DNA from: Bradyrhizobium sp. CCBAU 53340
Lineage (GTDB): Bacteria; Pseudomonadota; Alphaproteobacteria; Rhizobiales; Xanthobacteraceae
Direction of reading: 5' to 3'
Assembly: GCF_015291645.1 (NCBI RefSeq)
Contig: NZ_CP030055.1
Span: forward strand, 2,170,001 to 2,234,000
Length of the DNA stretch: 64,000 bases
The notes under the pieces were generated by a model. The model made no database searches and was not told the DNA's origin. It saw only the letters and a list, made by a program, of their open reading frames with translations. Every line of letters starts with the position of its first letter. Positions within the stretch are counted from its first letter, which is position 1. Made by a program: the position numbers and the translations under genes. This document shows positions 1,688 through 25,845 of this stretch, one piece after another.

Positions 1688-2614
1688 TCACCGCTGAATG
1701 ATCTTCGTCCAGACGTCGCCGAGAATGGCAGGTTCGCGCGGCGGCAGGTAGGTCAGGCCGGCCTGCTTGCCCAACTCAGCGATCTTGCCTTCGGCGGTGA
1801 GATCCGACAGGGCCTTGTCGACTGCCTCGATCAAGGCAGGATCGCTGCCAAGCCCGACATAGCCGCGATTGGCCCCGATCGGATAATAATAGCCGGATGC
1901 CGTGATCGCAGTCTCAGGACGCGCGGCGCGGTGCGCGTCGAAACGGGCAAGGTCGATCAAGGTCGCATCATAGTCGCCGCGATCGAGTGCGCCCAGGAGG
2001 TCGGCGCGGCCGGGGACGAGATGGGTGATGTTATCGATCAGCCGCCCCTTGTCGAAGGTCATCAGGATGGCGTCACCAAGCGATCCGCTTTCGATCGCGA
2101 GGCGAAGACCGGCGAGATCGCCGAGGTCACCGATCTTGCGGTCACGGGCCTTCGGGCCGAGCACGATGGTCATCGGCGAATAGACGTAAGGCCTGGTCGG
2201 CGCGAGCTCACCGAGCGCAACGCGGCGGCGTCGGTCGTCACGCGTGGCGCCCGCGAAGTCCGGCAGGCGCGCCGTCTTCATACCGGGCTTGACGAGCGAG
2301 TCCGTCGTCAGCGCATAGCCGCCGATCAGCGCGCAGCGCCCGTCCGAGAGCAGCGCATTGGCCTCGAGCTGCGGGCTGGAATCCTCATCCAGCTTGCTCT
2401 CGAACCACTGGATCTTGAGTGGGCGTCCCATCCGGTCCGCGATCGCCTGCGCCAGCAGGACGTCGAAACCAGAGTCCGGCTTGCCGCGATGGTGCGCCGA
2501 GAGCGGTGGTCGGTCCTCGTCGAGGCAGATGCTCAGGGGATCAGCCGCCCACGCCGCGGTCGCCGGCGCAGCGAGCATCATGGCAAGACCAAGCGCTGCG
2601 AGCCGGCGCCTCAT
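1688..2614 (-). CDS. xoxJ: XoxJ/MoxJ-like periplasmic substrate-binding protein
   Basis: A family-3-type periplasmic solute-binding protein of 308 residues with a clear signal peptide (MRRRLAALGLAMMLAAPATAAWA). Early mature motifs such as SICLDEDRPPLSAH and a later GLRLAIESGSLGDAILM fit the MoxJ/XoxJ branch associated with PQQ alcohol dehydrogenases. In characterised systems this protein is thought to help load or activate the dehydrogenase rather than import a nutrient. Its ATG overlaps the stop of the upstream cytochrome gene (ATGA), so it is the third gene of the xoxF-xoxG-xoxJ operon. The reading frame runs on upstream, but those 66 residues have no signal character. The family and gene order support the assignment. 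The exact activation role is inferred. Confidence 0.85.
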   Translation of the reverse strand: MRRRLAALGLAMMLAAPATAAWAADPLSICLDEDRPPLSAHHRGKPDSGFDVLLAQAIADRMGRPLKIQWFESKLDEDSSPQLEANALLSDGRCALIGGYALTTDSLVKPGMKTARLPDFAGATRDDRRRRVALGELAPTRPYVYSPMTIVLGPKARDRKIGDLGDLAGLRLAIESGSLGDAILMTFDKGRLIDNITHLVPGRADLLGALDRGDYDATLIDLARFDAHRAARPETAITASGYYYPIGANRGYVGLGSDPALIEAVDKALSDLTAEGKIAELGKQAGLTYLPPREPAILGDVWTKIIQR

Positions 2615-2964
2615 GGCTTCCTCCGACTCGAGATGAAGGCCCAGAGATTGCCGATGTCGTCGTCGCTCAAGATGTCGCCCCAGGGCGGCATCCTGTTGTT
2701 CTTGCCGTTCTTCACGGTCGTGACGAAGCGCGCCTTGTCGTCGGGAAAGGCGCGTAAATCCGGCGTGATGGTGCCGGAATTCATCATGTTGGGGCCGTGG
2801 CAGTGCGAGCATCGTTCGGCATAGGTGGACTTGCCGTGGTCGATCTGCGTCTGCAATGGATTGCCATTCGAATCATCCGCGGCACGAACAGTCGCCGCAA
2901 GCGCGACCGTCAGCACCGCGACGGTGGCGAGGATCGCCACCGTCTTGTGAGATGTGTCTCTCAA
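2611..2964 (-). CDS. xoxG: XoxG-like c-type cytochrome, electron acceptor of the PQQ dehydrogenase
   Basis: A 117-residue exported monohaem cytochrome c. A signal peptide (residues 1-28, ending VRAA) precedes the haem-attachment motif CSHCH at residues 52-56. A likely axial Met lies in NNRMPPWG. It sits 12 bp after xoxF and overlaps xoxJ by 4 bp, the usual xoxFGJ order. It should accept electrons from the reduced PQQ enzyme and pass them to the terminal oxidase chain. At about 90 mature residues it is smaller than many XoxG/MxaG cytochromes, so it may belong to a compact subgroup. Confidence 0.88.
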   Translation of the reverse strand: MRDTSHKTVAILATVAVLTVALAATVRAADDSNGNPLQTQIDHGKSTYAERCSHCHGPNMMNSGTITPDLRAFPDDKARFVTTVKNGKNNRMPPWGDILSDDDIGNLWAFISSRRKP

Positions 2965-2976
2965 CGTCTCTTGCCG

Positions 2977-4641
2977 TTATTGCTTCACTGCAAAGACCCA
3001 GAGCGAGCCGCCGGGCGGCACCTTGGCCAGCCGTTCGTCGCCGGAAAACAGCGAGTAAACGCCGCCATAGCCAGAGGTGACGGCGACGTACTGCACGCCG
3101 TCCTGCTGCCATGTCACCGGCTGTCCCTCGATGCCGGAGCCGGTCTGAAACTGCCACAGCTTCTTGCCGCTGTCGGCATCGAAGGCCTCGAACTCGCCGG
3201 TCAGCGCGCCCGTGAACACGACGCCGCCCGCGGTCGACAGCACGCCGGAGAAGCGTGGAATGTCGGAGGCGGCTTCCCACTTCGCCTTGCCGGTCATCGG
3301 ATCGATCGCCTTCAGATGACCGCGCGCACCGTCACCGAACTCCCAGGGATCGGTGAGGTCCATGCCGAGATACCATTCACCCTGCTTGAAGGTGACGGGC
3401 TCGGCCTTGTACTTGCCGCCGAAGGCGAGCGTGTTGGCGTAGGCGAGGCCGGTCTGCGGATTGAACGACATCGGCTCCCAGTTCTTGCCGCCGAGGATCG
3501 ACGGATAGACCGTGACCTTCTTGCCCTCGCGCGCGTCCTTGGCGACGTCGGTCTCGACCGGACGGCCGGTCTTCATGTCGACGCTCGTTGCCCAGTTGAC
3601 CTTCACGTAAGGATTGGCAGCGAGCAGCTTGCCGTTGGTCCGGTCGAGCACATAGAAGAAGCCGTTGCGGTTGGCGTCCATCAGCACCTTGGTCGGCTTG
3701 CCCTCGACGTTCATGTCGGCGAGGACCATCTCGGCCACGCTGTCATAGTCGAACGGGTTGTTCGGCGAGAACTGATAGTGCCACTTGATCTTGCCGGTCT
3801 TGGGATCCATCGCCAGCACTGAGCAGGTGTAGAGGTTGTCGCCGGGACGCACCGCCGAATTGAACGGTCCGGGATTGCCGATGCCCCAATAGACCGTGTT
3901 CAGCTCCGGATCGTAGGAGCCCGTGATCCAGGTCGAGCCGCCGCCGAGCTTCCAGGTATCGCCTTTCCAGGTGTCGCCGCCGGGCTCGTCCGGCGAGGGG
4001 ATCGAATGGGTACGCCAGAGATGCTTGCCTGTTGCCGGATCCCAGCCGTCGATGAACCCGCGGGTGCCGAACTCGGCGCCGGAGATACCGGTGATGACGA
4101 CACCGTCGGCGACCAGCGGGGCCACCGTCATCGAATAGCCTTCCTTGATGTCGGCCGCCTTCTGCCGCCAGAGCTCCTTGCCGTCCTTGGCATCAATCGC
4201 GATCACGTTGGCGTCGAGTGTGGTGCGAAACAGCTTGCCGTCATAGAGCGCCGCGCCGCGGTTGATGATGCCGCAGCAGACGATGCGCGGCGTCTCGGCG
4301 GGATATTCGATCTTGGATTTCCAGATCTGCTTGCCGGTCTTGGCGTCGACCGCCATGGTCGCATTGTGGGAGGTCACGTAGATTACGCCCTGGTACACCA
4401 GCGGCTGCGATTCCTCGCTACGATCGTCGTTGAAGGAGTAATTCCAGACCGGGACGAGGTTCTTGACGGTGTCCTTGTTGATCTGGTTCAGCGTCGAGAA
4501 ACGCTGCAGATTGTAGCCCATCCCGTAATTGAGAACGTTCGACGTATCGGTTGCGCCCTTGACCAGCTGATCGGTCGTTTGTGCGCTCGCAACCGAGCAT
4601 GCGAAGATGACGAGGCTCGCGGCCATCGCAAAACGTTTCAT
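2977..4641 (-). CDS. xoxF: PQQ-dependent alcohol (methanol) dehydrogenase, lanthanide type
   Basis: A periplasmic quinoprotein of 554 residues that oxidises methanol or another primary alcohol. The sequence shows a signal peptide ending ASAQ, repeated beta-propeller blades (TGK-x-LW type) and the vicinal disulphide Cys122-Cys123. The expected metal/PQQ ligands are present: Glu190 in GISGAEFG, Asn256 in GIGNPGPFN and Asp298. Asp300, two residues after the catalytic Asp (NPFDYDS), is the mark of lanthanide-using XoxF/ExaF enzymes; calcium enzymes have a small residue there. I chose the ATG at 4641 because GGGAGG lies just upstream and the signal peptide starts there. It is shorter than the usual 590-600 residues of XoxF. 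The physiological substrate is inferred, not shown. Confidence 0.9.
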   Translation of the reverse strand: MKRFAMAASLVIFACSVASAQTTDQLVKGATDTSNVLNYGMGYNLQRFSTLNQINKDTVKNLVPVWNYSFNDDRSEESQPLVYQGVIYVTSHNATMAVDAKTGKQIWKSKIEYPAETPRIVCCGIINRGAALYDGKLFRTTLDANVIAIDAKDGKELWRQKAADIKEGYSMTVAPLVADGVVITGISGAEFGTRGFIDGWDPATGKHLWRTHSIPSPDEPGGDTWKGDTWKLGGGSTWITGSYDPELNTVYWGIGNPGPFNSAVRPGDNLYTCSVLAMDPKTGKIKWHYQFSPNNPFDYDSVAEMVLADMNVEGKPTKVLMDANRNGFFYVLDRTNGKLLAANPYVKVNWATSVDMKTGRPVETDVAKDAREGKKVTVYPSILGGKNWEPMSFNPQTGLAYANTLAFGGKYKAEPVTFKQGEWYLGMDLTDPWEFGDGARGHLKAIDPMTGKAKWEAASDIPRFSGVLSTAGGVVFTGALTGEFEAFDADSGKKLWQFQTGSGIEGQPVTWQQDGVQYVAVTSGYGGVYSLFSGDERLAKVPPGGSLWVFAVKQ

Positions 4642-4982
4642 CCGTTCCTCCCAATATGCGCGCCTTTTGACGCTGCGATCGCAACACTCTGTCGGAAACC
4701 AAAACGCGTCAATACGAAAGTCGAAAGTGGCTTGCCGAATGTTGGACGTCGGAGGGCGGTCACCTGACGGAAACCTGACGATCGACTCCTTCACTTGTGC
4801 GCAGGCGCTGGAAAATTCCGCGGCATGAAGTTGTGCTCGCGTGGGTGCTGCAACCGAAGCTGTTGGGTTCCGCCAGTTGTGCAGTGCGCAGATTGCAATT
4901 CCGGGCTTGAATCGGGGCAGGCTTGTGGACTTATGTCGTTTTCGATCCCGCCCGAATCGGGACTCATGTCAGGGAGGTTTTC
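4642..4982. promoter_or_regulatory. Divergent intergenic region between xoxF and lanM
   Basis: These 341 bp hold the control regions of both the xox operon (minus) and lanM (plus). GGGAGG precedes xoxF, and AGGGAGG at 4971-4977 precedes lanM. Direct repeats of CGAAAGT lie near 4715-4727 and of CCTGACG near 4762-4780. GAATCGGG occurs twice, near 4910 and 4954, on the lanM side. I see no convincing gene. No -35/-10 pair could be assigned with confidence. Confidence 0.6.
4951..4961. promoter_or_regulatory. Candidate operator CCCGAATCGGG upstream of lanM
   Basis: A perfect inverted repeat of CCCGA/TCGGG with a single central base lies 22 bp before the lanM start codon. The same half-sites recur as two palindromes in front of the TonB receptor gene (23251-23287). 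CCCGAATCG, one half plus the centre, occurs at 5967-5975 upstream of pqqA. Sharing of the half-site across lanthanide genes is what suggests an operator; no regulator is identified. Confidence 0.4.
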
Positions 4983-5375
4983 ATGATGTCGCGTCGCTCT
5001 GTTGCGCTTGCACTCACGATCGCAATGCTGTCGGGTCCGGCCTGGTCGGCATCCGGCGGCGTCGTCAAAATGTTCGATACCGACAATGACGGCACGCTCG
5101 ATCTTGCCGAGGCGAAGAAGGCGGCCGCCGCGTTGTTCGCAAAGCTCGATCCCGACCATGACGGGACGCTCGACGTGCGCGAATTGCGCGGACGGCTGAC
5201 GGCAAAGGAACTCGCGGCCGCAGATCCCGATCACGATGGGACCCTCACGCTCGACGAATATCTTGCCGTGGTTGAGCAGCGCTTCAACGCAGCCAATCCC
5301 GACAAGGATGGAACGCTGGATGCGAAGGAGCTGAAATCGCGCGCCGGCCGTGCACTGCTACGCCTGCTGCGATAA
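4983..5375 (+). CDS. lanM: Lanmodulin, periplasmic lanthanide-binding EF-hand protein
   Basis: A 130-residue exported protein with four EF-hand loops: residues 32-43 (DTDNDGTLDLAE), 56-67 (DPDHDGTLDVRE), 81-92 (DPDHDGTLTLDE) and 105-116 (NPDKDGTLDAKE). Pro at loop position 2, Asp at position 9, only 12-13 residues between loops and Asn as first residue of the fourth loop are hallmarks of lanmodulin, not of calmodulin-like proteins. A signal peptide ends near AWSAS. The C-terminus SRAGRALLRLLR also resembles known lanmodulins. AGGGAGG is 5 bp before the ATG at 4983 and 8 bp before a second ATG at 4986. Loop 1 has Thr instead of Pro at position 2, and loop 3 has Thr instead of Asp at position 9. 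The gene is divergent from xoxF. Confidence 0.93.
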   Translation: MMSRRSVALALTIAMLSGPAWSASGGVVKMFDTDNDGTLDLAEAKKAAAALFAKLDPDHDGTLDVRELRGRLTAKELAAADPDHDGTLTLDEYLAVVEQRFNAANPDKDGTLDAKELKSRAGRALLRLLR

Positions 5376-5499
5376 GCGGACGGCCGGCAGGCCGGAATTC
5401 TGCCCTGCAATTCGGAACATCGGCCGATTCGACCTGTTCTTCTCGACATTCCGCGCGACGCTGGCGTCGTGCGGCGGGGCGAACAAGGAGATGAAGCAG

Positions 5500-5829
5500 A
5501 TGAACACGAAACGATCCATTCTCGTTGTATGCGCGATCCTGACGCTGAGCGCCGGCTCGGCGATGGCGGGCCCCTGCAACACCGGCAGCACTGCGAGCGA
5601 CAAGGACGCCGGCTCTGGTCCTGTCACGGTAGGCTCGGCGCAGTCCCATCCATCTGACGCCGCGGGCAATACCGGTCAGCACCCGCCGACCAGCACGATG
5701 AATCGCGCAAGCGGCGAAACGCCGGCGTCGTCCGAGGATGCACAGCGTCAGATGCAAGGCCAGCCGACGGCGGCTCAAAAGGCCGAAGGTGCCAAGCCGA
5801 ATGCGATGGCATCAGACCAGGGCTGCTGA
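5500..5829 (+). CDS. Small exported protein, unknown function
   Basis: A 109-residue protein with a signal peptide (MNTKRSILVVCAILTLSAG, cleavage after SAMA). It has a low-complexity hydrophilic mature part rich in Ser, Thr, Gly, Ala and Gln. Single Cys residues lie near the mature start (GPCNTG) and at the very C-terminus (DQGC). An in-frame ATG at 5491 directly abuts AAGGAG, so the ATG at 5500, 9 bp from that site, is the better start. It lies between lanM and pqqA on the same strand. No domain is recognised. The two terminal Cys residues could form a disulphide. Confidence 0.7.
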   Translation: MNTKRSILVVCAILTLSAGSAMAGPCNTGSTASDKDAGSGPVTVGSAQSHPSDAAGNTGQHPPTSTMNRASGETPASSEDAQRQMQGQPTAAQKAEGAKPNAMASDQGC

Positions 5830-6050: not shown

Positions 6051-6131
6051 ATGGCCTGGAAAGCTCCGAAGATCGTGGAAGTGCCGGTCGGCATGGAAAT
6101 CAACATGTACGCCTGCGCTGCGCGCAAGTAA
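6051..6131 (+). CDS. pqqA: PqqA, precursor peptide of pyrroloquinoline quinone
   Basis: A 26-residue peptide beginning MAWKAPKIVEVPVGMEIN and ending MYACAARK. The Glu16-x-x-x-Tyr20 pair in MEINMYA is the substrate pair that PqqE cross-links in PQQ synthesis. Length and C-terminus match PqqA exactly. GGGGAG lies 7 bp upstream. No pqqB, C, D or E follows; a strong hairpin lies immediately downstream and the next gene is a putative outer-membrane protein. This is therefore a stand-alone copy that would need PqqBCDE from elsewhere. Its place beside xoxF and lanM fits the supply of PQQ to the dehydrogenase. Confidence 0.95.
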   Translation: MAWKAPKIVEVPVGMEINMYACAARK

Positions 6132-6352: not shown

Positions 6353-7222
6353 ATGCGCGTCGGAGCCTGTAAATCCTGGAGATTGGTTGCGTGCCTTGTC
6401 GCCCTTGCGCCGGCATATGCGAGCGCCGAGGAGGGGTTTGATACCGAGCACATCTTCGGTTTCATGATCGGCAGCGATGTGGGCAATCCTGGCGAGCGCG
6501 AATTCCAGACCCAGACGACGGGACGGTTCGGCAAGGGCGGGAGCACCTATCGTGCCCTCGAGCACGAGGTCGAGATTGAAATCGTCCCGCTGCCGAATTT
6601 CCGCATCGAGGTCGGCGGCACGACCACGCTGCACGACATCACGGGCGTGCCTGACATCGATGATCGCCGCCAGGTCAACTTCCAGGGCGCCTCGCTCGAC
6701 CTGCGTTATCGCCTGCTCGACCGTGAGAATGCTCCGTTCGGGATGACCATCGCCGCCGAAACCCACGGCGACCGCATCGACGAGGTCAGCGGTGCGAAGG
6801 GGCGGATGTACGGCACGGACTTCACGCTTGCCTTCGATCGCGAACTGATCCCGAACTTCGCGGTCGGCGCGCTCAATCTGATTTACCAACCGGAATGGGC
6901 GCGCTTCGAGGTGAGCGGGCTGTCCGAGAAAAGCTCGACCATCGGCGCGGCCTTCGCCGGCATGGTGCGCGTGCGCCCAAACGTGCTGCTCGGCGGGGAG
7001 ATGCGCTACTTCCTCCGATATGAGGGCATCGGCCTCGGCGAGTTCTCGGGGCAAGCCCTGTTCGTCGGTCCAACCACCTATCTCCAGCTCTCGGAGCAAT
7101 CGCGGCTCACCCTGAGCTGGAGCATGCAGGCCTGGGGCCGTCCGGCGGGATCGGGAGCCAATCTCGATCTCGTCAATTTCGAGCGCCATCAGGCGCGGCT
7201 GGTGTTCGGGATCAACTTCTAG
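6353..7222 (+). CDS. Putative outer-membrane beta-barrel protein
   Basis: A 289-residue protein with a signal peptide (MRVGACKSWRLVACLVALAPAYASA). The mature chain is built of alternating short strands ending in aromatic residues, for example LIYQPEWARFEV, EMRYFLRYEG and LTLSWSMQAWG. It closes with a C-terminal Phe (RLVFGINF), the usual barrel insertion signal. These features support an outer-membrane barrel; no specific family or substrate is recognised. The frame is open upstream to 6134 but that part overlaps the pqqA hairpin and has no signal, so the ATG at 6353 is chosen. Its location between pqqA and further quinoprotein genes suggests a role at the envelope in this system, by position only. 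Confidence 0.7.
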   Translation: MRVGACKSWRLVACLVALAPAYASAEEGFDTEHIFGFMIGSDVGNPGEREFQTQTTGRFGKGGSTYRALEHEVEIEIVPLPNFRIEVGGTTTLHDITGVPDIDDRRQVNFQGASLDLRYRLLDRENAPFGMTIAAETHGDRIDEVSGAKGRMYGTDFTLAFDRELIPNFAVGALNLIYQPEWARFEVSGLSEKSSTIGAAFAGMVRVRPNVLLGGEMRYFLRYEGIGLGEFSGQALFVGPTTYLQLSEQSRLTLSWSMQAWGRPAGSGANLDLVNFERHQARLVFGINF

Positions 7223-7327: not shown

Positions 7328-7537
7328 ATGAACCCGATCGACCTGGTGGTGACTGTTTGCGCGGTGCTCTCGCCTGCGACCTGCGAGGAGCAGCATCTGG
7401 TGTTCAACTTTGGCGGCTCGCCGGCGCAATGCTCCATGGCCGCGCCGCCCTACATCGCGCAATGGGTCGGCGAACATCCGAAATGGCAGGCGGTGCGCTG
7501 GCGCTGCGAATATCCGCACCCGAATGACAAAGCCTGA
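7328..7537 (+). CDS. Small conserved-type protein, unknown function
   Basis: A 69-residue protein with Cys in CAVLSPATCEE, a further Cys in AQCSMAA and one near the C-terminus (RWRCEYP), plus several Trp (WVGEHPKWQAVRW). GAGAGGA lies just before the ATG. The hydrophobic N-terminus is short and may not be a cleaved signal. It resembles small Cys/Trp proteins common in rhizobial genomes, but no function is known to me. Confidence 0.65.
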   Translation: MNPIDLVVTVCAVLSPATCEEQHLVFNFGGSPAQCSMAAPPYIAQWVGEHPKWQAVRWRCEYPHPNDKA

Positions 7538-7671: not shown

Positions 7672-8025
7672 CTACTTCGTGCAGTCCTTCAGATCCTTGT
7701 CGGCGATCGAGAACACAGCATCGGCCTTGATGTCGATGTCGCGCACGACGCATTGCCGTGAGTTGGGATAGCTGACCTTGGCGTCGTAACGACCGGGCTC
7801 GATGCCGGTGATGCGCAGCCGCTCGTCGTGGTCGACCTCCTTGTCCTTGTCGTTCAGGCACTGGTTCGGTCCCCAGTCGGTCTTGCCTGATGGCGCGAGC
7901 TGGAAGCCGGAGATCGTCTCGCTCGTCAAATTCCAGAGCCGGATGCCCTTGCCCTTGGCCTGCGCGAGCGCCGCGCCCGGCATCGCAACCAACAGGATGC
8001 CGATCGCAATCAGCTGACGGCGCAT
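7672..8025 (-). CDS. Exported protein of unknown function in the quinoprotein locus
   Basis: A 117-residue protein with a signal peptide (MRRQLIAIGILLVAMPGAALAQ). The small, probably beta-rich mature domain contains KGIRLWNLTSETISGF, two Asp-rich turns (NDKDKEVDHDERLRI and ADKDLKDC) and Cys in NQCLND, RQCVVRD and at the C-terminus. I chose the ATG at 8025; GGGAGG lies upstream, and the extra residues of the longer frame lack signal character. It follows the NitT/TauT-type ABC operon on the same strand after about 45 bp and may be its last gene. The Asp clusters might bind a metal, which is speculation. Confidence 0.7.
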   Translation of the reverse strand: MRRQLIAIGILLVAMPGAALAQAKGKGIRLWNLTSETISGFQLAPSGKTDWGPNQCLNDKDKEVDHDERLRITGIEPGRYDAKVSYPNSRQCVVRDIDIKADAVFSIADKDLKDCTK

Positions 8026-8072
8026 GGTGACCTCCCTCGACAATCTCTGATGATGCAGTTGACCACGAGTTT

Positions 8073-8783
8073 TCATTTCGATTCAAGCAGCAAGGCTGCG
8101 AGCTCTGCCCTGATCCTGGCAAGATCAGCCTCGCTGCGTCCGGCGCGCGGGATGGCGATCGGCACCTCTCGCACAATGCGGGCAGGACGCGGGGACAGGA
8201 AGAACAGGCGATCGCCGAGACGGATGGCATCGTCCAGGCTGTGCGTGACGAGCAGCGTCATCACGGAGCGGCTCGCCACCAGAGTCGCGATTTCGTCGCG
8301 CAGGCGGCCGGCGAGTGCGTCGTCGAGCGAGGCGAGGGGTTCATCGAGTACGAGCAGATCGGGCTCGACCGCAAAGGCGCGGGCAAGCGCGACCCGGCGG
8401 GCAAGGCCGAGCGACAATTCGCCGGGAAAATGGCTGCGATGCGCTTCCAGCTCGAGGATCTTGAACAGCTCTGACAGCTTCGCGTCGGTGACGTCAGGCG
8501 CCGCCAGTCGCACATTCTGCTCGACCGAGCGCCACGGCAACAGCCGCGGCTCCTGGAACACCATGCCGATCCGTGCCTCCGGCGGGCGCGCGACGTGGCC
8601 GTCGAAATCGCGGTCGAGCCCGAGGATGATGCGCAGCATCGTGCTCTTGCCACAGCCGGACGGTCCGATCAGCACGCCGACCTCGCCCGATTGCAGCGCG
8701 AACTTGACCGGTGCCAGCACCTCGTGCGTCCCGCCCGAAGCGCTCCTGTAGGTCTTGCCTGTGACGTCGACCTCAAGCCGCAC
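8073..8783 (-). CDS. ABC transporter ATP-binding protein, NitT/TauT/SsuB type
   Basis: A 236-residue ATPase of a nitrate/sulfonate/taurine-type importer. Walker A is GPSGCGKST, the Q-loop is VFQEPRLLPW, Walker B is LLVLDEP and the switch His is in VTHSLDDA. The signature loop reads LSLGLARR where LSGGQ is expected, a marked deviation also found in some members of this branch. Its start overlaps the end of the permease gene by 11 bp. With the permease and binding protein (8073-10489) it forms one minus-strand operon inside the quinoprotein region. The substrate is unknown. A chelated metal, cofactor or aromatic sulfonate are all possible. Confidence 0.88.
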   Translation of the reverse strand: MRLEVDVTGKTYRSASGGTHEVLAPVKFALQSGEVGVLIGPSGCGKSTMLRIILGLDRDFDGHVARPPEARIGMVFQEPRLLPWRSVEQNVRLAAPDVTDAKLSELFKILELEAHRSHFPGELSLGLARRVALARAFAVEPDLLVLDEPLASLDDALAGRLRDEIATLVASRSVMTLLVTHSLDDAIRLGDRLFFLSPRPARIVREVPIAIPRAGRSEADLARIRAELAALLLESK

Positions 8784-9510
8784 GGGGCCGCCACCGCGTT
8801 GCGCGGGCCTCGAACGGCTGCACCAGCGCGGTCTCGATCACGAGCACGACCGCGGCAAAGGTCAGGGAATAAGCGAGCAGGCGCGGCGTGTCGAACAGCT
8901 GGAAGGCGACGCCGATCTCGAAGCCGACGCCGTTCGGCCGTCCCAGCAGCTCGGCGACCAGCACGATCTTCCACACCAACGACAATCCTGAGCGGGCGGA
9001 GGCCGCGATATAGGGCGCGAGCTGCGGCAGCACGACGTGGCGGAACGCGCGCCAGCGCGGCATCGCAAACACCGTCGCCATCTCGTCGAGCGAGCGATCG
9101 AGCGCACGCGTGCCCTCGCGCAAGGTGACGACGGCCGTCGGCAGCTTGTTGATGGCGATCGCCGCGATCGCGGCGGCTTCGGTGAGTCCGGCCCAGATAT
9201 AGGCCAGCACGATCACCACCAGCGCCGGCAGGTTCAAGAGCAGGATCAGCCAAGGATCGCCGAGCCGGTCAGCGAGCTTCACCCGGCCCATCAAATAGCC
9301 GATGGCACTGCCGACCGACATGGCCAGCACGAATGCGAGCGCGACGCGCGCCAACGTCGCGCCGAGATGCAGAAACAGCGCGCCACTCCTGGCTTCCGCG
9401 ACGATGACGCTGAGCACGGCGTGCGGGGAGGGCAGCTTGGCACCGCCGACGAACAAGGCGCCGATCCACCAGATCGCGAGAAACAGGGCGAAGGAGAGAA
9501 GGCGCAGCAC
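8773..9510 (-). CDS. ABC transporter permease, NitT/TauT type
   Basis: A 245-residue inner-membrane permease of the BPD-type with about six helices. The conserved cytoplasmic EAA loop is recognisable in DEMATVFAMPRWRAFRHVVLPQLAPYI. I assign a GTG start at 9510, two bases after the stop of the binding-protein gene; the frame extends further upstream but only through that gene in another frame. It pairs with the ATPase at 8073-8783. A glycine in the EAA motif (normally EAA---G) is replaced by Ala in VFAMP, a minor oddity. Confidence 0.85.
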   Translation of the reverse strand: MLRLLSFALFLAIWWIGALFVGGAKLPSPHAVLSVIVAEARSGALFLHLGATLARVALAFVLAMSVGSAIGYLMGRVKLADRLGDPWLILLLNLPALVVIVLAYIWAGLTEAAAIAAIAINKLPTAVVTLREGTRALDRSLDEMATVFAMPRWRAFRHVVLPQLAPYIAASARSGLSLVWKIVLVAELLGRPNGVGFEIGVAFQLFDTPRLLAYSLTFAAVVLVIETALVQPFEARATRWRPRAA

Positions 9511-9511
9511 C

Positions 9512-11855: not shown

Positions 11856-11907
11856 GGTCGTGGTCCCGTTCGGGCGACGCAATTATCAGACAAGCGTAGC
11901 GCGCCCG

Positions 11908-18167: not shown

Positions 18168-19333
18168 TTGCTCTCCGGGCGATCGTAGCCGAGCGTGTCG
18201 AGCTCGGAGACCTGGTGCAGAAATCCCTCCTGCGGCGACACCGACACCACCATGCGGCCATCGACGAGGAGAATCGGCTGGCGCAGCTGAAGATTCCAGT
18301 CGCGCAACGTGAGCCTTGTGCCCTTGAAGGCGGCCACCTCGAAGTTGGGGCCCTTGATGAAATCGGTGACCTTCTTGACGTCGCCGGAATTGGTGCGCGA
18401 GGTGGCCTCGCCAATCATGCGCACTGCAGTCCAGGCCTGCATGTCGAGCGCAGTCATCCGCCGTGAGTTGAGCTTGATGAAGCGGTTCTGCATCTGGATC
18501 GCGCCCCACTGGTCCTGCGCGGCATCCCAGCTGCGCGGCACCAGGCCCGCCGAGCCCGCCACAGGGCGGGGATCCCAGGTGCGGTAGGGCAGGTAGGCGG
18601 CGAAGACTTCGCTCTCGTCGGCGGCGACCAGCACGTCATAGGCGGGAGCCTGTTGCGTGAACACCGGCATCTGGTGCTGGATCAGCGTCACGCCGCTATC
18701 CGTGCGGCGCGCGCCGCCGGTATCCTCAAATGTGCGCTCCTGTACGATCTTGGCGCCGAACCGCGTCGCGGCGCGCCGGAGCGCATCGGCGTAGAGCTTG
18801 TCCTCGTCATGCGAGCCGACGACGAGCAGCCAGCGCGACCACTTCTTCCACACCAGATATTGCCCGAGCGCATCGGCCAGCATCGCGCGCGTCGGTGCGG
18901 TGTGGATGACATTGACGCGGCAATCGGCTTCGCGCAGCCGCTCGTCGATGGCGCCGGCGTTGAACAGCAGCGTGCCGCGATCGCGCAGGGCATCGGCCAC
19001 TTTCAGAAGGGCGTCGGCCGGCAGATCAGCAATGATGAAGCCGTTCTTCTCGGCGAGCGCGGTCGCCGCCTGGATCGGATCTTCGCCTTCCTTGATCCGG
19101 CGCTCGTCCAGCGTGAAATGCTGGCCCGTGAATTTTCCGGTGGTGTTGTTGTCTTCGATGGCGAGCCTGGCACCGGCGACGCCATCATTCTCGGCGGGCT
19201 GCTCGACCAGCGACAGCGTTGCTCGGGTGCCGGCGACGCCGAGATAGCCGACGCCGATTGTGACCGGGTCGGCCGCGAGCGCTTGCATCGCTGCCAAACA
19301 CAGGCCAATCGGGCCGAGCAACCATCGGATCAT
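18152..19333 (-). CDS. PQQ-associated ABC transporter substrate-binding protein (LutA-like)
   Basis: A 393-residue periplasmic protein of the branched-chain-amino-acid-binding fold. It begins MIRWLLGPIGLCLAAMQALA, followed by TIGVGYLGVAGTRATLSL and GARLAIEDNNTTGKFTG. VAADESEVFAAYLPY and a C-terminal ELDTLGYDRPESKC are typical of the binding subunit found with PQQ alcohol dehydrogenase ABC systems. GGAGGAAGC stands directly before the ATG at 19333. It is first in a five-gene operon with the propeller, ATPase, permease and helical protein. A lanthanide or lanthanide-chelator ligand is inferred from the lut parallel. Confidence 0.85.
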   Translation of the reverse strand: MIRWLLGPIGLCLAAMQALAADPVTIGVGYLGVAGTRATLSLVEQPAENDGVAGARLAIEDNNTTGKFTGQHFTLDERRIKEGEDPIQAATALAEKNGFIIADLPADALLKVADALRDRGTLLFNAGAIDERLREADCRVNVIHTAPTRAMLADALGQYLVWKKWSRWLLVVGSHDEDKLYADALRRAATRFGAKIVQERTFEDTGGARRTDSGVTLIQHQMPVFTQQAPAYDVLVAADESEVFAAYLPYRTWDPRPVAGSAGLVPRSWDAAQDQWGAIQMQNRFIKLNSRRMTALDMQAWTAVRMIGEATSRTNSGDVKKVTDFIKGPNFEVAAFKGTRLTLRDWNLQLRQPILLVDGRMVVSVSPQEGFLHQVSELDTLGYDRPESKCKLK

Positions 19334-19393
19334 GCTTCCTCCAAAAATCCTCCCCGGCTTGACCGCCGGTTGAGAATTGTTTCTGCTGGAAGC

Positions 19394-19963
19394 ATGACCG
19401 ATTTGGCAAGGCTTGCAACCCCGCATTTCGTCCTTGCACGCACGAGCGCAGGAATCACGATCGTGCGAGCGCTGCTGTGTTTCACGGTATTGCTGTTGAC
19501 GGGATCGGCCGCGTTGGCCGATCCGCCGAAACTTGCGGTGTTCGATTTTGAGCTGATCGACACCAGCCTGCCCGGCGAGTTCTACGGTTCGAAGCCGGAG
19601 GAAGCGCGCCTCGATCGCATCAGCGAGCAGTTGCGCAAGGCATTGGCTGAGTCGGGTAAGTTCCAGGTGCTCGATATCGCGCCGGTCAGGGATGCCGCCC
19701 GTCACAGCAATCTGCAGGCCTGCGGCGGCTGCGACCTCAAGCTGGCCGGGCAGCTAGGGGCGGACCTCGAGATCACCGGCCTTGTGCAAAAAGTCTCGAA
19801 CCTGATCATCAATCTCAACATCTATCTGCGCGACGTGAAGACCGGCAACATGATCACGGCAGCCAGCGCCGACATGCGCGGCAACACGGATGAATCCTGG
19901 TCGCGCACGATGAGCTATCTGATCCGCAACCGTCTGCTGGCGCCGAACTACGGCAAGCCGTGA
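19394..19963 (+). CDS. Exported DUF2380/DUF3280-like protein
   Basis: A 189-residue protein with a hydrophobic signal segment (IVRALLCFTVLLLTGSAALA). The single domain begins KLAVFDFELIDTSLPGEF and includes LQACGGCDLKLAGQLGAD, with a CGGC pair, and NLNIYLRDVKTGNMI. The pattern (AVFDFEL...LIDVATGxxI) fits small exported proteins grouped as DUF2380 or DUF3280. It is divergent from the LutA-like gene, with only 60 bp between start codons, so the two promoters overlap. The CGGC motif suggests a disulphide or metal site. Confidence 0.7.
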   Translation: MTDLARLATPHFVLARTSAGITIVRALLCFTVLLLTGSAALADPPKLAVFDFELIDTSLPGEFYGSKPEEARLDRISEQLRKALAESGKFQVLDIAPVRDAARHSNLQACGGCDLKLAGQLGADLEITGLVQKVSNLIINLNIYLRDVKTGNMITAASADMRGNTDESWSRTMSYLIRNRLLAPNYGKP

Positions 19964-20137: not shown

Positions 20138-20983
20138 CTAGCCCTTCAATCTCTCCGCATGCCAGTGCAGATGGTCGCTCATGAAGGTCGAGATGAAGTA
20201 ATAGCTGTGGTCATAGCCCGGCTGGCGCCGCAGTGTCAGCGGAATGTTGGCCTTGGTGCAGGCGGCCTGCAGCAGCTCGGGCTTGAGCTGCTCTTTCAGG
20301 AAATTGTCGGCCTCGCCGACGTCGACCAGGAAGCCGGAATATTTCGCGCCGTCCTCGATCAAGGCCACCGTGTCATGGTTGCGCCAGGCATCCTTGTTCG
20401 GACCGAGATAGCCGGTCAAGGCCTTGATGCCCCACGGCACCTGTGACGGTGCCACGATCGGGGCAAAGGCGCTGGCAGCGCGATAGCGGTGCGGGTTGCG
20501 CAGTGCCACCGTCAGCGCGCCGTGGCCGCCCATGGAATGGCCCATCACCGATTGCCGCTTGGCATCGACGGGAAAATTTCCCGATACCAGTTTGGGCAGC
20601 TCGTCGGTGACATAGCTCCACATCCGATAATTGCGCGCGAACGGCTCTTGCGTCGCATCGACATAGAACCCGGCGCCCAGACCGAAATCATAGGCATTGT
20701 TGGCGTCGCCAGGCACGTCGGGGCCGCGTGGCGAAGTGTCGGGCGCGACGAAGATCAGGCCGAGCTCGGCGCAGGCTCTGCGGAATTCGCCCTTCTCGGT
20801 GACATTGGCATGGGTGCAGGTGAGGCCGGAGAGATACCAGACCACGGGCAGCTTCGCGCCTTGGGCGTGCGGAGGAACGTAGACCGAGAACACCATGTCG
20901 GTTCCGGTCGCCTGGCTGGCATGGCGGTACACGCCCTGCACGCCGCCATAAGACATATTGGTCGAGACAGTCTGGATCGTCAT
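20138..20983 (-). CDS. fghA: S-formylglutathione hydrolase
   Basis: A 281-residue cytosolic esterase of the esterase-D family that splits S-formylglutathione to formate and glutathione. This is the second step of glutathione-dependent formaldehyde oxidation. The catalytic Ser150 lies in GHSMGGHG. The conserved WYLSGLTCTHANVTEKGEF region and the C-terminal His in PGYDHSYYFI are present. Length is normal. The matching formaldehyde dehydrogenase is not in the window. Its place between the lut-like operon and the two-component genes links it to disposal of the formaldehyde made by XoxF. Confidence 0.95.
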   Translation of the reverse strand: MTIQTVSTNMSYGGVQGVYRHASQATGTDMVFSVYVPPHAQGAKLPVVWYLSGLTCTHANVTEKGEFRRACAELGLIFVAPDTSPRGPDVPGDANNAYDFGLGAGFYVDATQEPFARNYRMWSYVTDELPKLVSGNFPVDAKRQSVMGHSMGGHGALTVALRNPHRYRAASAFAPIVAPSQVPWGIKALTGYLGPNKDAWRNHDTVALIEDGAKYSGFLVDVGEADNFLKEQLKPELLQAACTKANIPLTLRRQPGYDHSYYFISTFMSDHLHWHAERLKG

Positions 20984-21055: not shown

Positions 21056-21676
21056 CTAGGCCACGCCGCTTTCGATCGCCAGCCGTACCAGCTCGACCGA
21101 GGTCTTGACGCCGAGCTTCTGACGCATGATCGAGGAGGTGTTGGCGACCGTCTTGTAGGACGATTGCACCAGCCAGGCGATCTCGGACAGGCTTTTCCCC
21201 GCGCTGAGCAGCCGCAAGATCTCCATCTCGCGCGCGTTCAGCTTCGAGAGCGGGTTCTGCGCCAGCGCAGGCCCAGCAAAGGCGATGCTGCGCGCGATCG
21301 CGCTCGGAAGATAGGTGCCGCCGCCTCCGACGGTGCGGATTGCCTCGACGAGGTCGTCAGGATCGCCGGTCTTCGACACATACCCCTTGGCGCCGCACTC
21401 GATCGCGCGTGCGGCGAAGGCGGGATCGTCGTTCATGCTGAACATGATGATGCGCGCTTCCGGTGCGCGCTCGAGGATGCGGCGCGCGAGCTCGAAGCCG
21501 GAGACGGTCGGCAGGTTGATGTCGACGACGCAGAGATCGGGGCGCTCGACGATGAAGATGCTCTCGCCATCCTCGGCGTCGGCGGCCTCCAGAATTTCGA
21601 TCTCGCCTTCGTCGGCCAGCACGGCGCGGCAGCCGGAGGCGACAATGGGATGATCGTCGACGATCAAGATGCGCAT
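21056..21676 (-). CDS. NarL/LuxR-family response regulator
   Basis: A 206-residue response regulator. The receiver domain has Asp7-Asp8, phosphoacceptor Asp52 (CVVDINLP) and Lys in GYVSKTGD. The C-terminal LuxR-type helix-turn-helix covers NAREMEILRLLSAGKSLSEI. It is divergent from the sensor kinase at 21868 and next to fghA. This matches the arrangement of formaldehyde- or methanol-responsive pairs such as FlhSR of Paracoccus. It probably controls the alcohol and formaldehyde oxidation genes here; that role is inferred from context. Confidence 0.9.
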   Translation of the reverse strand: MRILIVDDHPIVASGCRAVLADEGEIEILEAADAEDGESIFIVERPDLCVVDINLPTVSGFELARRILERAPEARIIMFSMNDDPAFAARAIECGAKGYVSKTGDPDDLVEAIRTVGGGGTYLPSAIARSIAFAGPALAQNPLSKLNAREMEILRLLSAGKSLSEIAWLVQSSYKTVANTSSIMRQKLGVKTSVELVRLAIESGVA

Positions 21677-21867
21677 AGGCGTTCCCCGTGACAGCGCCGG
21701 CCTGCATTTTCGCGTCGCATGATGCCGAACGAGACAAACGCGCCTCTTGTCGGGTCATGCAACCCGGCCGGGATTGCTGTACGTTTCCGATTAGATATCG
21801 GGCGCTTCGGCTCTGTCAACGCTGTCAGACGGGCATGAGCGATCCTTCGGGGTATGGACGAAAAGCA

Positions 21868-23226
21868 ATGTGGCAAAATCTTTCCTTGCGCGGGCGCATC
21901 AACCTTCTGCTGGCGTTGTTGCTTGCACTTGGGCTCGCCGTCAACATCGCCCGCCAGGTCGCCGAGGCGGGGCCGCGCGTGCAGGCCGAGGACCAGAGCG
22001 TGATCCGGCTGGCGCGCGAGTTCATCGAGATGATCGTTGCCGATCTCAACGAGGCGCCGGATCCCGATGCCAGGCTGAACCAGATCGCCCATGATCTCAA
22101 CCGCCTCCGCCATGTCAGCATCTCGCTGCGGGACGCGAGCGGGAACCCGCTGACACCGCCGCGCCCCGATACCGATGACGACACGGTTGGGCCGCCGGCC
22201 TGGTTCGTCAGCCTGGTTCATCCCGAGCAGACGGCGGTCAGCGTACCGGTCTCGGTGCATGACAAGCCGGGTTCGCTGGTGATTACCTCGCATCCCAATG
22301 ACGAGATCGCGGAGATCTGGGACGCCATCGTCACGCAGCTCGAGGTCGGGTCAGTCATCGCGCTGGCGCTGTTCCTGGTCATGATGACAGTGGTCGGCCG
22401 GGCGCTCGCGCCGCTGGAATCGCTGGCGCAGACGATGGGCGAGCTCGAGAATGGCCGCTATGAGGCCCGCGTCGCATCCGGCGGCGCGCCCGAATTGGCT
22501 GCGATCTGCACCAGGCTCAATCACCTGGCGGCAACGCTTGGCGAGGCGGTCGAGGACAAGCGGCGCCTGGCCGAGCGCGCGGTGTCGCTCCAGGACGTCG
22601 AGCGCAAGGAGATCGCGCGCGAGCTGCACGACGAATTCGGGCCCTATCTGTTCTCGCTGCGCGCGCATGCCAGCGCGCTGGCAAAGCTCGCCGACGGACG
22701 CGCGCCGAGCGCCGAGGCGGTGCGAAAGCACGGCGGCGCTTTGCTGGAGCAGATCAACGCGCTGCAGCAGTTCACCCGCCGCGTGCTGGAGCGCCTGCGG
22801 CCCGTCGGCCTTGCCGAGCTTGGCCTCGGCAAGGCGCTGGAATCGCTGTCGCGGCTATGGCGGGAATCGCATCCTGACGTGACGATCGAGACCACGATCT
22901 CGCCGGAGCTCGGGATCACGGGCGAGACCGCCGATCTCACCATCTACCGCGTGGTGCAGGAGGCGCTCACCAACGCGTTTCGCCACGCCGGCGCGACCGC
23001 GATCGTCGTGGTGATCGAGCCGGCGGAGCAACCGGGCCGCGACGGCCGCTTCTGTGCCCGTGTCAGGGTCAGCGACAATGGCCGCGGCATGGAGCCGGGC
23101 CAGAAGCTTGGCTTCGGCCTCGTCGGCATGCGCGAGCGCATTCTGGCGCTCGGCGGCACGCTCAACGTCGCGTCGGGCGAGGGCGGCGTCACCGTCGAGG
23201 CGCTGGTTCCGACCGCAGCGGCCTGA
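21868..23226 (+). CDS. Sensor histidine kinase of the HisKA_3 (NarX-like) family
   Basis: A 452-residue membrane sensor. A first helix (INLLLALLLALGLAVNIA) is followed by a periplasmic segment of about 130 residues, a second helix (VGSVIALALFLVMMTVVG) and a HAMP domain. The phosphoacceptor His254 lies in ERKEIARELHDEFG, and the ATPase domain shows VVQEALTNAFRHAG and SDNGRGM...GFGLVGMRER. GGGTATGG and AAAGC precede the ATG at 21868; an upstream ATG at 21835 would add 11 residues. It is divergent from its presumed partner at 21056-21676. The periplasmic domain is the likely signal receiver, but the ligand is unknown. Confidence 0.9.
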   Translation: MWQNLSLRGRINLLLALLLALGLAVNIARQVAEAGPRVQAEDQSVIRLAREFIEMIVADLNEAPDPDARLNQIAHDLNRLRHVSISLRDASGNPLTPPRPDTDDDTVGPPAWFVSLVHPEQTAVSVPVSVHDKPGSLVITSHPNDEIAEIWDAIVTQLEVGSVIALALFLVMMTVVGRALAPLESLAQTMGELENGRYEARVASGGAPELAAICTRLNHLAATLGEAVEDKRRLAERAVSLQDVERKEIARELHDEFGPYLFSLRAHASALAKLADGRAPSAEAVRKHGGALLEQINALQQFTRRVLERLRPVGLAELGLGKALESLSRLWRESHPDVTIETTISPELGITGETADLTIYRVVQEALTNAFRHAGATAIVVVIEPAEQPGRDGRFCARVRVSDNGRGMEPGQKLGFGLVGMRERILALGGTLNVASGEGGVTVEALVPTAAA

Positions 23227-23250
23227 TCGCGCCAAGTTCAATCATGGAAA

Positions 23251-23287: not shown

Positions 23288-23406
23288 AACGAGTGCGAAT
23301 AGCCTACGACCTTTTGTGGCTAGTGCATCAGCGAGGGCCGACTACACTTCTCCAGGCAATCGGCGACGTTCAAAACAGCCGACGTTTGGGAATGGGACGG
23401 CAGGGG

Positions 23407-25845
23407 ATGGGCGCGCGAAAGCTTTTGATTGCCTCGATGTCGACGGGGCTGGTGCTTTGGACCGACGCAGGCATAGCCGCGCAGGATGAAGACACCAATG
23501 TCCAGAACTTGCCCGCGATCGAGGTGGTGGCGCCGCAGCCGACCGCGCGGCGCAGCGCGCCGCGAACGGCCGCACGTGTCGTGAATTCCGGCAAACCCAG
23601 GATCCACGTCTACGTCTATCCGACGGCGCCCGGCAATGCGAAGGGCCTCGACGTCGACAAGGTCCCCTCCAGCATCAGCGCGGTCGATGCCAACCAGATC
23701 AAGCGTACGGGTTCGCTGAACGTCGCCGATGCACTGCGTGACAATGTCGCTGGCGTCAACATCACCGAGGTGAGCGGTAATCCGTTCCAGCCGAATGTCG
23801 AGTTTCGCGGCTTCGTCGCCTCGCCCATAACAGGCACGCCCCAGGGGCTTGCCGTCTACCAGAATGGCGTCCGCATCAACGAAGCATTTGCCGACAGCGT
23901 CAATTGGGATCTGATCCCGACCGCCGCGATTCGGTCGGTCACGGTGGTGACCAACAATCCGGCCTTCGGCCTCAATGCGCTCGGCGGCGCCGTCAATCTG
24001 CAAATGAAGGACGGCTTCACCCACCAGGGCGCCGAGATCGACACGATGGGCGGCTCATTCGGCCGCATCCAGAGCTCGGCGCAATGGGGCAAGCAGGTCG
24101 ACGCCAACTACGCCGTCTACGCCGCGCTCGAGGGCCTGCACGACAACGGCTTCCGCACCTCCTCGCAATCGGACGTGCGCCGCTTCTACGGCGATGTCGG
24201 CTACAAGGGCGGGGACAGCGAATTCCACGTCAACATGGGGCTCGCCAACAACAATTTCGGCGCATCCGCGACCGTTCCCGCCGAGCTGTTGCAGCAATAT
24301 TGGGGCGCGATCTACACCAATCCGCAGACCACCAACAACCGCGTCGGCTACATCAACCTGACCGGCAAGGCCGAGGCGACGCCGACCTGGACCTTCGAGG
24401 CGACAGCGCATGCGCGTGTGTTCGAGCAGCGCGTGGTCGACGGCAACCCCACCAATGTGCAGGAATGCGCCGCGGTCGGCTTGCTCTGCTTTGACGACAA
24501 CACGACGCCGGCGAACGGCCTCAATGGCGCACAGCTCACCAATCCTTTCCCGACCGGAACGCTGCTCGGCGAGCTCGACCGGACGACGACGCGATCGACC
24601 ACGTTCGGCGTCTCCGGCCAGGCCACCAACACCGACAGGCTGTTCGATCACGACAACCGCTTCGTCCTCGGCGCCAGCTTCGATGCCAGCGTCACGCGAT
24701 TCAATGCGTCGGCCGAACTCGGGACCATCGGTTCGGACTTCGTCGTGACCGGCAGCGGGATTCTTCTGGGCAAATCCGGCACGCCCGCGACGGGGGAGAT
24801 GGGACCGGTGTCGCTGCGCACCGTCAACCAATATAGCGGTCTCTATGCGCTCGACACCTTTAACGTGACCGATGCCTTCGCCATCACGGGCGGTGGCCGC
24901 TTCAACCACGCCCGTGTCACGCTGGAGGACCAGCTCGGCATCGATCTCAATGGCGATCACACCTATGACCGCTTCAATCCTGTGATCGGCGGCACCTACA
25001 AGATCATGCCGGAGCTGACCGCCTATGCCGGCTACTCCGAGGCCAACCGCGTGCCGACCCCGCTCGAGCTCGGCTGCGCCGATCCGAACAACCCGTGCCT
25101 GATCGCATCGTTCCTGGTCTCGGATCCGCCGCTGAAGCAGGTGGTGTCCAAGACGGTCGAAGCGGGCCTGCGCGGCACGAAGGAGCTGAACATCGGCACG
25201 CTCGGTTGGAAGATCGGCGGCTTCCGCGCCACCAATCAAGACGACATCATGGGCCTGCCCGTAGCGGGGCGCCAGGGCTTTGGCTTCTTCCAGAACGTCG
25301 GCGCGACACGCCGGCAGGGCCTCGAGGCCGAGGTCAATCTGAAATCGGCAGCGCTTCAGTTTCATGCCAGCTACGCCTTCGTGGACGCGCGTTTTCTCGA
25401 CGCGCTCGAACTTTCGTCCAATAGCCCGACGGCCGTACGCAATGGCGGCGTCATCCAGGTCGTGCCCGGCAACCAGATCCCGGCCGTGCCACGCCACCGC
25501 ATCAAGGCCGGCGTTGAATACGCCGTCACCGAACCCTGGAAGATCGGCGGTGACGCGCTCTGGGTCTCAAGCCAGTACTATGTCGGCGACGAAGCCAACC
25601 ACGAGGCCAAGCTGCCGGGCTACGCCGTGTTCAACCTGCACACGTCGTACCAGGTCGCCAAGAACGTTCAGCTCTACGGCAAGGTCGACAACGTCTTCGA
25701 CAACCGCTACGCGACCTACGGCACCTTCTTCGATACCACTGCGGTGCCGAATTTCGCCAATGGCGGAGCTCCCTTCACCGACCCGCGCTCGCTGAGCCCG
25801 GCAAGGCCGCGCGCGTTCTATGCGGGGATGCGGGTGACGTTCTGA
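23407..25845 (+). CDS. TonB-dependent outer-membrane receptor, candidate lanthanide receptor (LutH-like)
   Basis: An 812-residue TonB-dependent receptor. A signal peptide and a variable N-terminal stretch are followed by a plug domain (KVPSSISAVDANQIKRTGSL through NALGGAVNLQMKDG) and a 22-strand-type barrel. The barrel ends in the canonical aromatic terminus (RAFYAGMRVTF). FecA-like receptors share this layout. AGGGG abuts the ATG at 23407; an alternative ATG is at 23392. Tandem palindromes lie upstream. Its co-location with xoxF, lanM and the lut-like ABC operon makes a lanthanide-chelate substrate the leading idea, whereas an iron siderophore cannot be excluded from the sequence alone. There is no FUR/RirA-type neighbour. 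Confidence 0.88.
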   Translation: MGARKLLIASMSTGLVLWTDAGIAAQDEDTNVQNLPAIEVVAPQPTARRSAPRTAARVVNSGKPRIHVYVYPTAPGNAKGLDVDKVPSSISAVDANQIKRTGSLNVADALRDNVAGVNITEVSGNPFQPNVEFRGFVASPITGTPQGLAVYQNGVRINEAFADSVNWDLIPTAAIRSVTVVTNNPAFGLNALGGAVNLQMKDGFTHQGAEIDTMGGSFGRIQSSAQWGKQVDANYAVYAALEGLHDNGFRTSSQSDVRRFYGDVGYKGGDSEFHVNMGLANNNFGASATVPAELLQQYWGAIYTNPQTTNNRVGYINLTGKAEATPTWTFEATAHARVFEQRVVDGNPTNVQECAAVGLLCFDDNTTPANGLNGAQLTNPFPTGTLLGELDRTTTRSTTFGVSGQATNTDRLFDHDNRFVLGASFDASVTRFNASAELGTIGSDFVVTGSGILLGKSGTPATGEMGPVSLRTVNQYSGLYALDTFNVTDAFAITGGGRFNHARVTLEDQLGIDLNGDHTYDRFNPVIGGTYKIMPELTAYAGYSEANRVPTPLELGCADPNNPCLIASFLVSDPPLKQVVSKTVEAGLRGTKELNIGTLGWKIGGFRATNQDDIMGLPVAGRQGFGFFQNVGATRRQGLEAEVNLKSAALQFHASYAFVDARFLDALELSSNSPTAVRNGGVIQVVPGNQIPAVPRHRIKAGVEYAVTEPWKIGGDALWVSSQYYVGDEANHEAKLPGYAVFNLHTSYQVAKNVQLYGKVDNVFDNRYATYGTFFDTTAVPNFANGGAPFTDPRSLSPARPRAFYAGMRVTF

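Follow-up and report, generated by a model that had tools for sequence, protein, structure and literature searches.

A small exported four-cysteine protein inherited with XoxF5 as a probable periplasmic helper in a Bradyrhizobium lanthanide-dependent alcohol-oxidation island

The window analyzed here is a stretch of 64,000 nucleotides from Bradyrhizobium sp. CCBAU 53340 (NCBI RefSeq assembly GCF_015291645.1, contig NZ_CP030055.1, positions 2,170,001 to 2,234,000 of the forward strand). Coordinates are counted from its first base, with the strand as + or −, and small proteins are called by the start of their genes. Judged from their sequences, the genes of this island serve lanthanide uptake (a TonB receptor and LutABEFG), buffering (lanmodulin, LanM), alcohol oxidation by lanthanide-type pyrroloquinoline quinone (PQQ) dehydrogenases served by cytochromes and XoxJ-type helper proteins, disposal of formaldehyde through glutathione, and regulation by a MoxY-like two-component pair. 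A locus of this kind is already understood, and most of its genes are of known type. The new element is the protein encoded at 10573..10932 (+), called 10573, which is inherited together with the lanthanide enzyme XoxF5 in the sampled genomes, and the value of the locus rests on that one gene.

The gene for 10573 is divergent from an ATP-binding cassette (ABC) operon that ends at 10489, and it encodes an exported helical protein of 119 residues with four cysteines and no named family; no Pfam or NCBIfam model matched it at E ≤ 0.001. The protein has a signal-peptide-like start, and typical members carry NDYPT..RADYV..CM, then C[SAV]C[SA]ID, and AQAEAE.RCF at the C-terminus. C44, C58, C60, and C118 are invariant among 27 diverse members, and the acidic residues D63, E113, and E115 are conserved. 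The AlphaFold2 model shows five helices after the signal, with a mean predicted local distance difference test score (pLDDT) of 86.9 and block means of 89–97 from residue 31 on, and hairpin geometry would suggest the disulfide pairs C44–C58 and C60–C118. No sequence relative below E 1 was found in the PDB, and the fold search gave no match above background.

At least 6,217 relatives of 10573 are present in the database. Among the best 120 matches of each search, none carries a Pfam domain, and the entries are hypothetical or nameless, with a few labelled lipoprotein, secreted protein, DUF5330, or lysyl-tRNA synthetase. On a plasmid of Phyllobacterium sp. T1293, the homologue (WP_112522178.1) lies between XoxF5 and the SoxYZ-like carrier, and in Rhizobium leguminosarum, WP_245372615.1 adjoins a PQQ dehydrogenase that shares 69% identity with XoxF5. 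In Sinorhizobium meliloti 1021 and 2011, the homologue lies in a pSymB stretch without a listed gene (NC_020560.1, 185064-185345, in strain 2011). Many further genomes have soxYZ, xoxF5, gfa, or lut genes close to the homologue, and soxYZ was seen with 10573 in 20 of 37 loci of the order outside Bradyrhizobium.

Conservation within Bradyrhizobium was measured using the window dehydrogenase (2977..4794) as a query against named genomes, which confirmed 245 relatives, of which the best 80 were kept; a gene was scored in a locus only where both flanking genes were found. At 92–98% identity, the records kept bear the title Bradyrhizobium or Bradyrhizobiaceae in 79 cases and Frankia sp. RB7 in the other. 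The record labelled Frankia holds a 97% identical Bradyrhizobium-type dehydrogenase locus, and its label is probably wrong. Gene content and order are kept within Bradyrhizobium beyond chance, and 10573 was present in all 59 testable loci.

The true XoxF5 gene lies outside the window, at L001:17803-19614, and starts 387 bp to the left of window base 1. Its product has AM1 XoxF1 as its best match (6oc5, 1073 bits) and carries the motif WDYDG. The genes for XoxF5, XoxG, Gfa, and a glutathione-dependent formaldehyde dehydrogenase (GS-FDH) share the interval L001:9940-19614 (genome C1:2159940-2169614) with those for a CoxL-type oxidase and a third PQQ dehydrogenase, which has a DWD motif. These neighbours were named by reading, and for XoxG, GS-FDH, and Gfa the names also follow from annotated genes that they match in named records.

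Co-occurrence was analyzed in 160 genomes sampled evenly across the order, with each query searched in the same set; XoxF5 was called at ≥60% identity and E ≤ 1e-180, and 10573 at E ≤ 1e-4. All 41 XoxF5 genomes contain 10573, compared with 0 of the other 119. The XoxF5 genomes belong to 19 families; 14 are mixed, having members with and without XoxF5, and 10573 tracks the enzyme throughout. When labels were shuffled within families, a perfect match had a probability of 1.1e-9, a rough value in which kinship inside families is ignored. The distance between the two genes is at most 10 kb in 23 of the 41 genomes and at most 25 kb in another 10. In the remaining eight it exceeds 100 kb or the genes are on separate contigs: three genomes have both on a single contig, with distances of 185, 336, and 741 kb, and five have them on different draft contigs. 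Because these eight are unlinked yet concordant, linkage alone does not explain the match.

Four genomes of this sample (G031, G074, G109, and G124) have a sole match at E ≤ 1e-180 with 53–55% identity and the motif WDYAG, which we take to be that of the calcium-type enzyme MxaF, and 10573 is absent from them. The motif was read in eleven matches and the window genome's own XoxF5; WDYAG was also found in four second copies in XoxF5 genomes, and three copies at 62–69% identity carry WDYDG. Since the four genomes with only an MxaF-type match lack 10573, the protein follows the lanthanide enzyme in the order sample, not methanol oxidation as such.

In a phylum-wide sample of 358 genomes, searched with a 10573 profile at E ≤ 0.001 and for XoxF at E ≤ 1e-180, the profile matched 32 genomes, 31 of which are the 31 XoxF genomes. 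The remaining match (G184, E 5e-4) was rejected as chance, being part of a 334-residue frame whose product was read as resembling a sugar-nucleotide epimerase; with it excluded, the counts are 31/31 versus 0/327. One genome counted as positive, G413, has a match of only 52% and seemed to be an exception, but its XoxF5 is cut off by a contig end: a fragment with 88% identity is found where the contig with its 10573 gene breaks off; in another, G361, the XoxF5 match spans residues 178–602 only. The phylum sample re-uses 10 positives of the order sample, so that 21 are new; five of these come from other classes and four from another family of the same class, and the four cysteines are kept in all nine. 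The preliminary description of this locus, made from the window sequence, had proposed seven exported proteins (5500, 6353, 7672, 10573, 14489, 14925, and 19394) as new parts of a lanthanide system that should co-occur with xoxF and lanM; for 10573, the association with xoxF held in both samples.

The enzyme encoded at 2977..4794 (−) is a PedH/ExaF-like lanthanide-type PQQ alcohol dehydrogenase, as indicated by its solved relatives, identity, and motif. Its top solved relatives are the quinoprotein ethanol dehydrogenases 6zcv (455 bits) and 1flg (440 bits), which score above the XoxF structures 6dam (367 bits) and 6oc5 (327 bits), and no solved relative exceeds 457 bits. It is 41% identical to the XoxF5 of its own genome, compared with a criterion of about 60%; XoxF or XoxF5 was therefore ruled out as its identity, and the label "xoxF-type" given to it earlier was not borne out. 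Lanthanide-type PQQ dehydrogenases are recognized by a second aspartate two residues after the catalytic one, and this residue is present here (FDYD; compare WDFD in 6zcv, WDYD in XoxF 6dam, and WDFS in 1flg). Beside the dehydrogenase are a small cytochrome c in a PedF-like position (2611..2964, −; PF13442), which scored 43.8 bits with the PedF cytochrome c550 model TIGR04494, below its cut-off of 122, and a solute-binding-protein-like periplasmic protein in a PedG-like position (1688..2812, −), assigned by position, with no match to TIGR03871. Between XoxF5 and this operon, an AraC-type regulator at 111–1091 is FeaR-like, with 178 bits against a curated cut-off of 199.

Lanmodulin is encoded at 4986..5375 (+; NF053806, 181 bits, cut-off 135; PDB 6mi5, E=9e-33) and has four EF loops, with proline at position 2 in three of them and threonine in the first. 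The gene starts about 5.4 kb from XoxF5, and both genes are present in 62 of the 80 Bradyrhizobium loci, 5.2–11.2 kb apart; the LanM of one Bradyrhizobium genome was reported as not co-localised with XoxF (PMC10875860; this and the other papers cited below are represented by part of their text). lanM was found in 74 of 75 testable Bradyrhizobium loci. In the order sample, LanM exceeded the cut-off in 7/160 genomes, and 12 reached at least 70 bits, all with XoxF5; at E ≤ 0.001, the model matched 121/160, mostly through weak EF-hand matches. Co-occurrence with lanM is therefore a poor criterion for new parts, lanM itself being rare. The PqqA precursor peptide of 26 residues is encoded at 6054..6131 (+) and was recognized by sequence.

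Adjoining 10573 is a group of genes for quinoprotein-associated proteins. A quinoprotein dehydrogenase-associated SoxYZ-like carrier (11037..11882, −; TIGR04557, 285.6 bits, cut-off 140) and a SoxH-like quinoprotein relay zinc metallohydrolase 2 (11908..12834, −; TIGR04559, 405 bits, cut-off 280) are followed by an XoxJ/MxaJ-type periplasmic protein (12961..13839, +; TIGR03871, 300 bits, cut-off 212) and a rhodanese-like PQQ-associated CXXCW protein (13849..14406, +; TIGR03865, 250.8 bits, cut-off 128). On the other side, an NMT1-type importer comprises an ABC ATPase (8073..8783, −) and a permease (8773..9660, −), both identified by library matches, and a substrate-binding protein (9512..10489, −; PF09084). 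This importer recurs near xoxF5 or 10573: the ATPase and permease were both found in 13 of 37 order loci outside Bradyrhizobium, and three named rhizobial records have the complete set.

The Lut lanthanide-uptake system consists of a LutA-type periplasmic binding protein (18152..19705, −, with the true start probably near 19330; TIGR03863, 501 bits, cut-off 414), a LutB-type beta-propeller (17184..18509, −, with the true start probably near 18152; TIGR03866, 519 bits, cut-off 287), a LutE-type ABC ATPase (16381..17187, −; TIGR03864, 346 bits, cut-off 302), and a LutF-type ABC-2 permease (15536..16384, −; TIGR03861, 405 bits, cut-off 241). The presumed LutG (14925..15539, −) directly follows lutF, which gives the order lutA-B-E-F-G reported in PMC7391723. 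Homologues of lutABEFG have been reported in Bradyrhizobium (PMC12628762), and the growth of an M. extorquens AM1 lutG mutant on methanol with lanthanum is delayed and slow (PMC7391723). At E ≤ 1e-6, lutG was found in 42/160 order genomes, namely all 41 XoxF5 genomes and G141; as the G141 contig ends about 1.1 kb past lutG, XoxF5 may be missing from that assembly only. The LutE model exceeded its cut-off in 53/160 genomes, including all 41 with XoxF5. The four genomes with a WDYAG match and without XoxF5 (L177-L180) have a LutE-model ATPase over the cut-off and no LutG.

The remaining named genes encode FghA, an S-formylglutathione hydrolase (20138..20983, −; TIGR02821, 406 bits, cut-off 282), a LuxR-type response regulator (21056..21676, −; PF00072, PF00196), a histidine kinase with a LapD/MoxY periplasmic domain (21688..23226, +; PF16448, PF07730), and a TonB-dependent receptor that is a candidate LutH (23293..25845, +; domains PF00593 and PF07715). 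Curated models, Pfam, and sequence thus agree with the earlier placement of LanM, the lut-like ABC operon, the XoxJ-type protein, pqqA, the TonB receptor, fghA, and the two-component pair. The idea of a combined locus for lanthanide capture, alcohol oxidation, and aldehyde disposal was right, and the locus is larger than claimed, with XoxF5, XoxG, GS-FDH, and Gfa next door; its "xoxF" inside the window was misnamed.

The seven exported proteins proposed as new parts fared differently. The comparison with xoxF across genomes was run for five of the seven and singles out 10573. The protein at 14925, listed as of unknown function, is by its position the known LutG. The protein at 19394..19963 (+) is an exported DUF3280 protein (PF11684) divergent from lutA; at E ≤ 1e-6 it was found in 33/160 order genomes, 30 with XoxF5 and three without, while 11 of the 41 XoxF5 genomes lack it. 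No more than 6 kb separate its gene from lutE in 23 of the 30. Its distribution points to a partly lut-linked accessory. The exported beta-rich protein at 7672..8028 (−) has an acidic loop and is fixed in the testable Bradyrhizobium loci (74/74); outside them its support is weak, with matches at E ≤ 0.001 in 10/160 order genomes, six of them with XoxF5. The loop, LNDKDKEVDHDERL, is nearly invariant and could be a metal-binding site; confidence in the structure model is low.

A CusF-like small exported protein (14489..14866, −; PF11604, 35.5 bits, cut-off 27) was present in 12 of 12 testable loci, in a comparison covering Bradyrhizobium. The other two proteins are unlike lanthanide genes. The small exported protein called 5500 (5491..5829, +) is patchy, being present in 24 of 74 testable loci in the same Bradyrhizobium comparison. 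The exported protein at 6353..7222 (+), which has no family, was found at E ≤ 1e-4 in 15/160 order genomes, seven with XoxF5 and eight without, and in 56 of 74 testable Bradyrhizobium loci. A conserved protein of 69 residues that was absent from the earlier list is encoded at 7328..7537 (+) and was present in 74/74 testable Bradyrhizobium loci; weak homologues lie near xox, lut, or ABC genes in other families, and its own genome has a second, weaker copy. Among the seven candidates, 10573 is set apart, as the one most worth a mutant, from those that are known or unlinked.

How apo-XoxF is loaded with lanthanide and PQQ in the periplasm, and how its active-site disulfide arises there, is to our knowledge an open question. 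We consider, with a probability of roughly 75%, that the window is the Bradyrhizobium form of the known lanthanide-dependent alcohol-oxidation island, with the 10573 product as a periplasmic XoxF5 helper. From its export, cysteines, and co-inheritance, 10573 is probably a dedicated helper of XoxF5, as a maturation or partner protein. How it would act is a tentative proposal, to which we give somewhat less than even odds: a small disulfide-braced helical protein would bind immature XoxF5 in the periplasm while metal and PQQ are loaded or the adjacent-cysteine disulfide of XoxF5 is closed, and the neighbouring SoxYZ-like, SoxH-like, and CXXCW proteins would act in the same step. The chances appear evenly balanced that 10573 founds an unnamed family of obligate XoxF5 partners, a so far missing assembly factor or partner that XoxF5 would need for full activity. 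XoxF5 is the lanthanide methanol dehydrogenase of several classes of Pseudomonadota. Rhodanese, SoxYZ-like, and SoxH-like proteins have been argued to serve the maturation, redox control, or disulfide formation of lanthanide dehydrogenases, or the protection of PQQ (PMC12997753), and 10573 would suit such a setting. In the same paper, however, the trio was also found with PedH in Pseudomonas; 10573, by comparison, was seen with XoxF5 only.

Several points weigh against a helper role. The sampled genomes share ancestry, which makes the shuffle value rough. Joint transfer accounts for part of the match, since the two genes lie near each other in the majority of the 41 genomes, and in five of the eight genomes scored as unlinked they are on separate draft contigs, where the real distance may be smaller. 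The transposon screen in AM1 (PMC7391723) lists, in the part of the paper used here, no gene identifiable as 10573, which may therefore be dispensable in AM1 or too short a target for the transposon. The fold search points to no mechanism, and a structural protein with two disulfides need not be a redox catalyst.

Among the alternatives, an ordinary Bradyrhizobium lanthanide methylotrophy cluster with nothing new in it survives best, at perhaps one chance in a few. The published lut homologues and the xoxF cluster with glutathione-linked genes (PMC12628762) speak for it, as does the fact that most genes of the window meet named models, but 10573 has no Pfam or NCBIfam match, is "hypothetical" in nearly all named entries seen, and matches XoxF5 in two samples with no confirmed exception. 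Somewhat less likely is a periplasmic chaperone that hands the lanthanide to XoxF5. Such a chaperone would fit the occurrence of 10573 with the lanthanide enzyme and its absence from the four genomes with only an MxaF-type match, and the rarity of LanM leaves a general chaperone still missing; against this, 10573 shows no EF-hand or other Pfam match, and its invariant residues include all four cysteines.

With similar odds, 10573 may be a subunit held loosely by XoxF5, or an adaptor that connects it with, for example, the cytochrome XoxG, analogous to the small subunit of MxaFI. The one-to-one presence in both samples and a small, exported product with four conserved cysteines would suit such a role, but XoxF has been described as consisting of one subunit (PMC6277846), and 10573 is often divergent from xoxF and outside its operon. 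That 10573 is a passenger travelling with xoxF5 by linkage, with no role in lanthanide methanol oxidation, is very improbable: the genes are within 25 kb in 33 of the 41 genomes, but the eight other genomes, the 14 mixed families, and the five concordant genomes from other classes do not fit it. A periplasmic helper of XoxF5 remains the preferred reading, and a one-to-one XoxF5 partner in tractable methylotrophs and rhizobia offers a direct genetic handle on the XoxF loading question. 10573 is also a possible marker or part for lanthanide biotechnology.

The locus can be compared with several known systems. XoxF3 clusters of Acidobacteria and Gemmatimonadetes likewise have small conserved hypothetical proteins (about 110–130 residues) beside the XoxF gene, but by their description these differ from 10573, being found with XoxF3, in other phyla, and beside CoxIII/CtaG or NRAMP (PMC10875860). 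The window LanM resembles M. extorquens lanmodulin (PDB 6mi5) in its four EF loops, the last starting NPD, and a similar C-terminal helix, and differs in having threonine for proline at position 2 of loop 1 and threonine at position 9 of loop 3. The lut cluster of Methylorubrum extorquens AM1/PA1 (PMC7391723) has lutA, B, E, F, and G in the same order, with lanM and a TonB receptor in the cluster; in contrast, the window has no lutC or lutD between lutB and lutE, since these two overlap, and its Lut genes are joined to the xox/pqqA/ABC region.

The Pseudomonas putida ped cluster and the AM1 exaF locus (PMC12997753) share a PedH-like enzyme with a cytochrome and a solute-binding protein, an arrangement that the 2977–4794 enzyme, the small cytochrome at 2611–2964, and the binding protein at 1688–2812 resemble. 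SoxYZ-like, SoxH-like, and rhodanese proteins and Lut-like ABC genes are also shared, whereas 10573 was not seen in the text examined. The xoxF cluster with glutathione-linked genes of Bradyrhizobium and Sinorhizobium (PMC12628762) differs in that lanmodulin and ExaF are not named in its main text and 10573 was not seen in the text examined; like the present locus, it combines XoxF, XoxG, a frmA-type GS-FDH, gfa, an fghA-type gene, and lut homologues.

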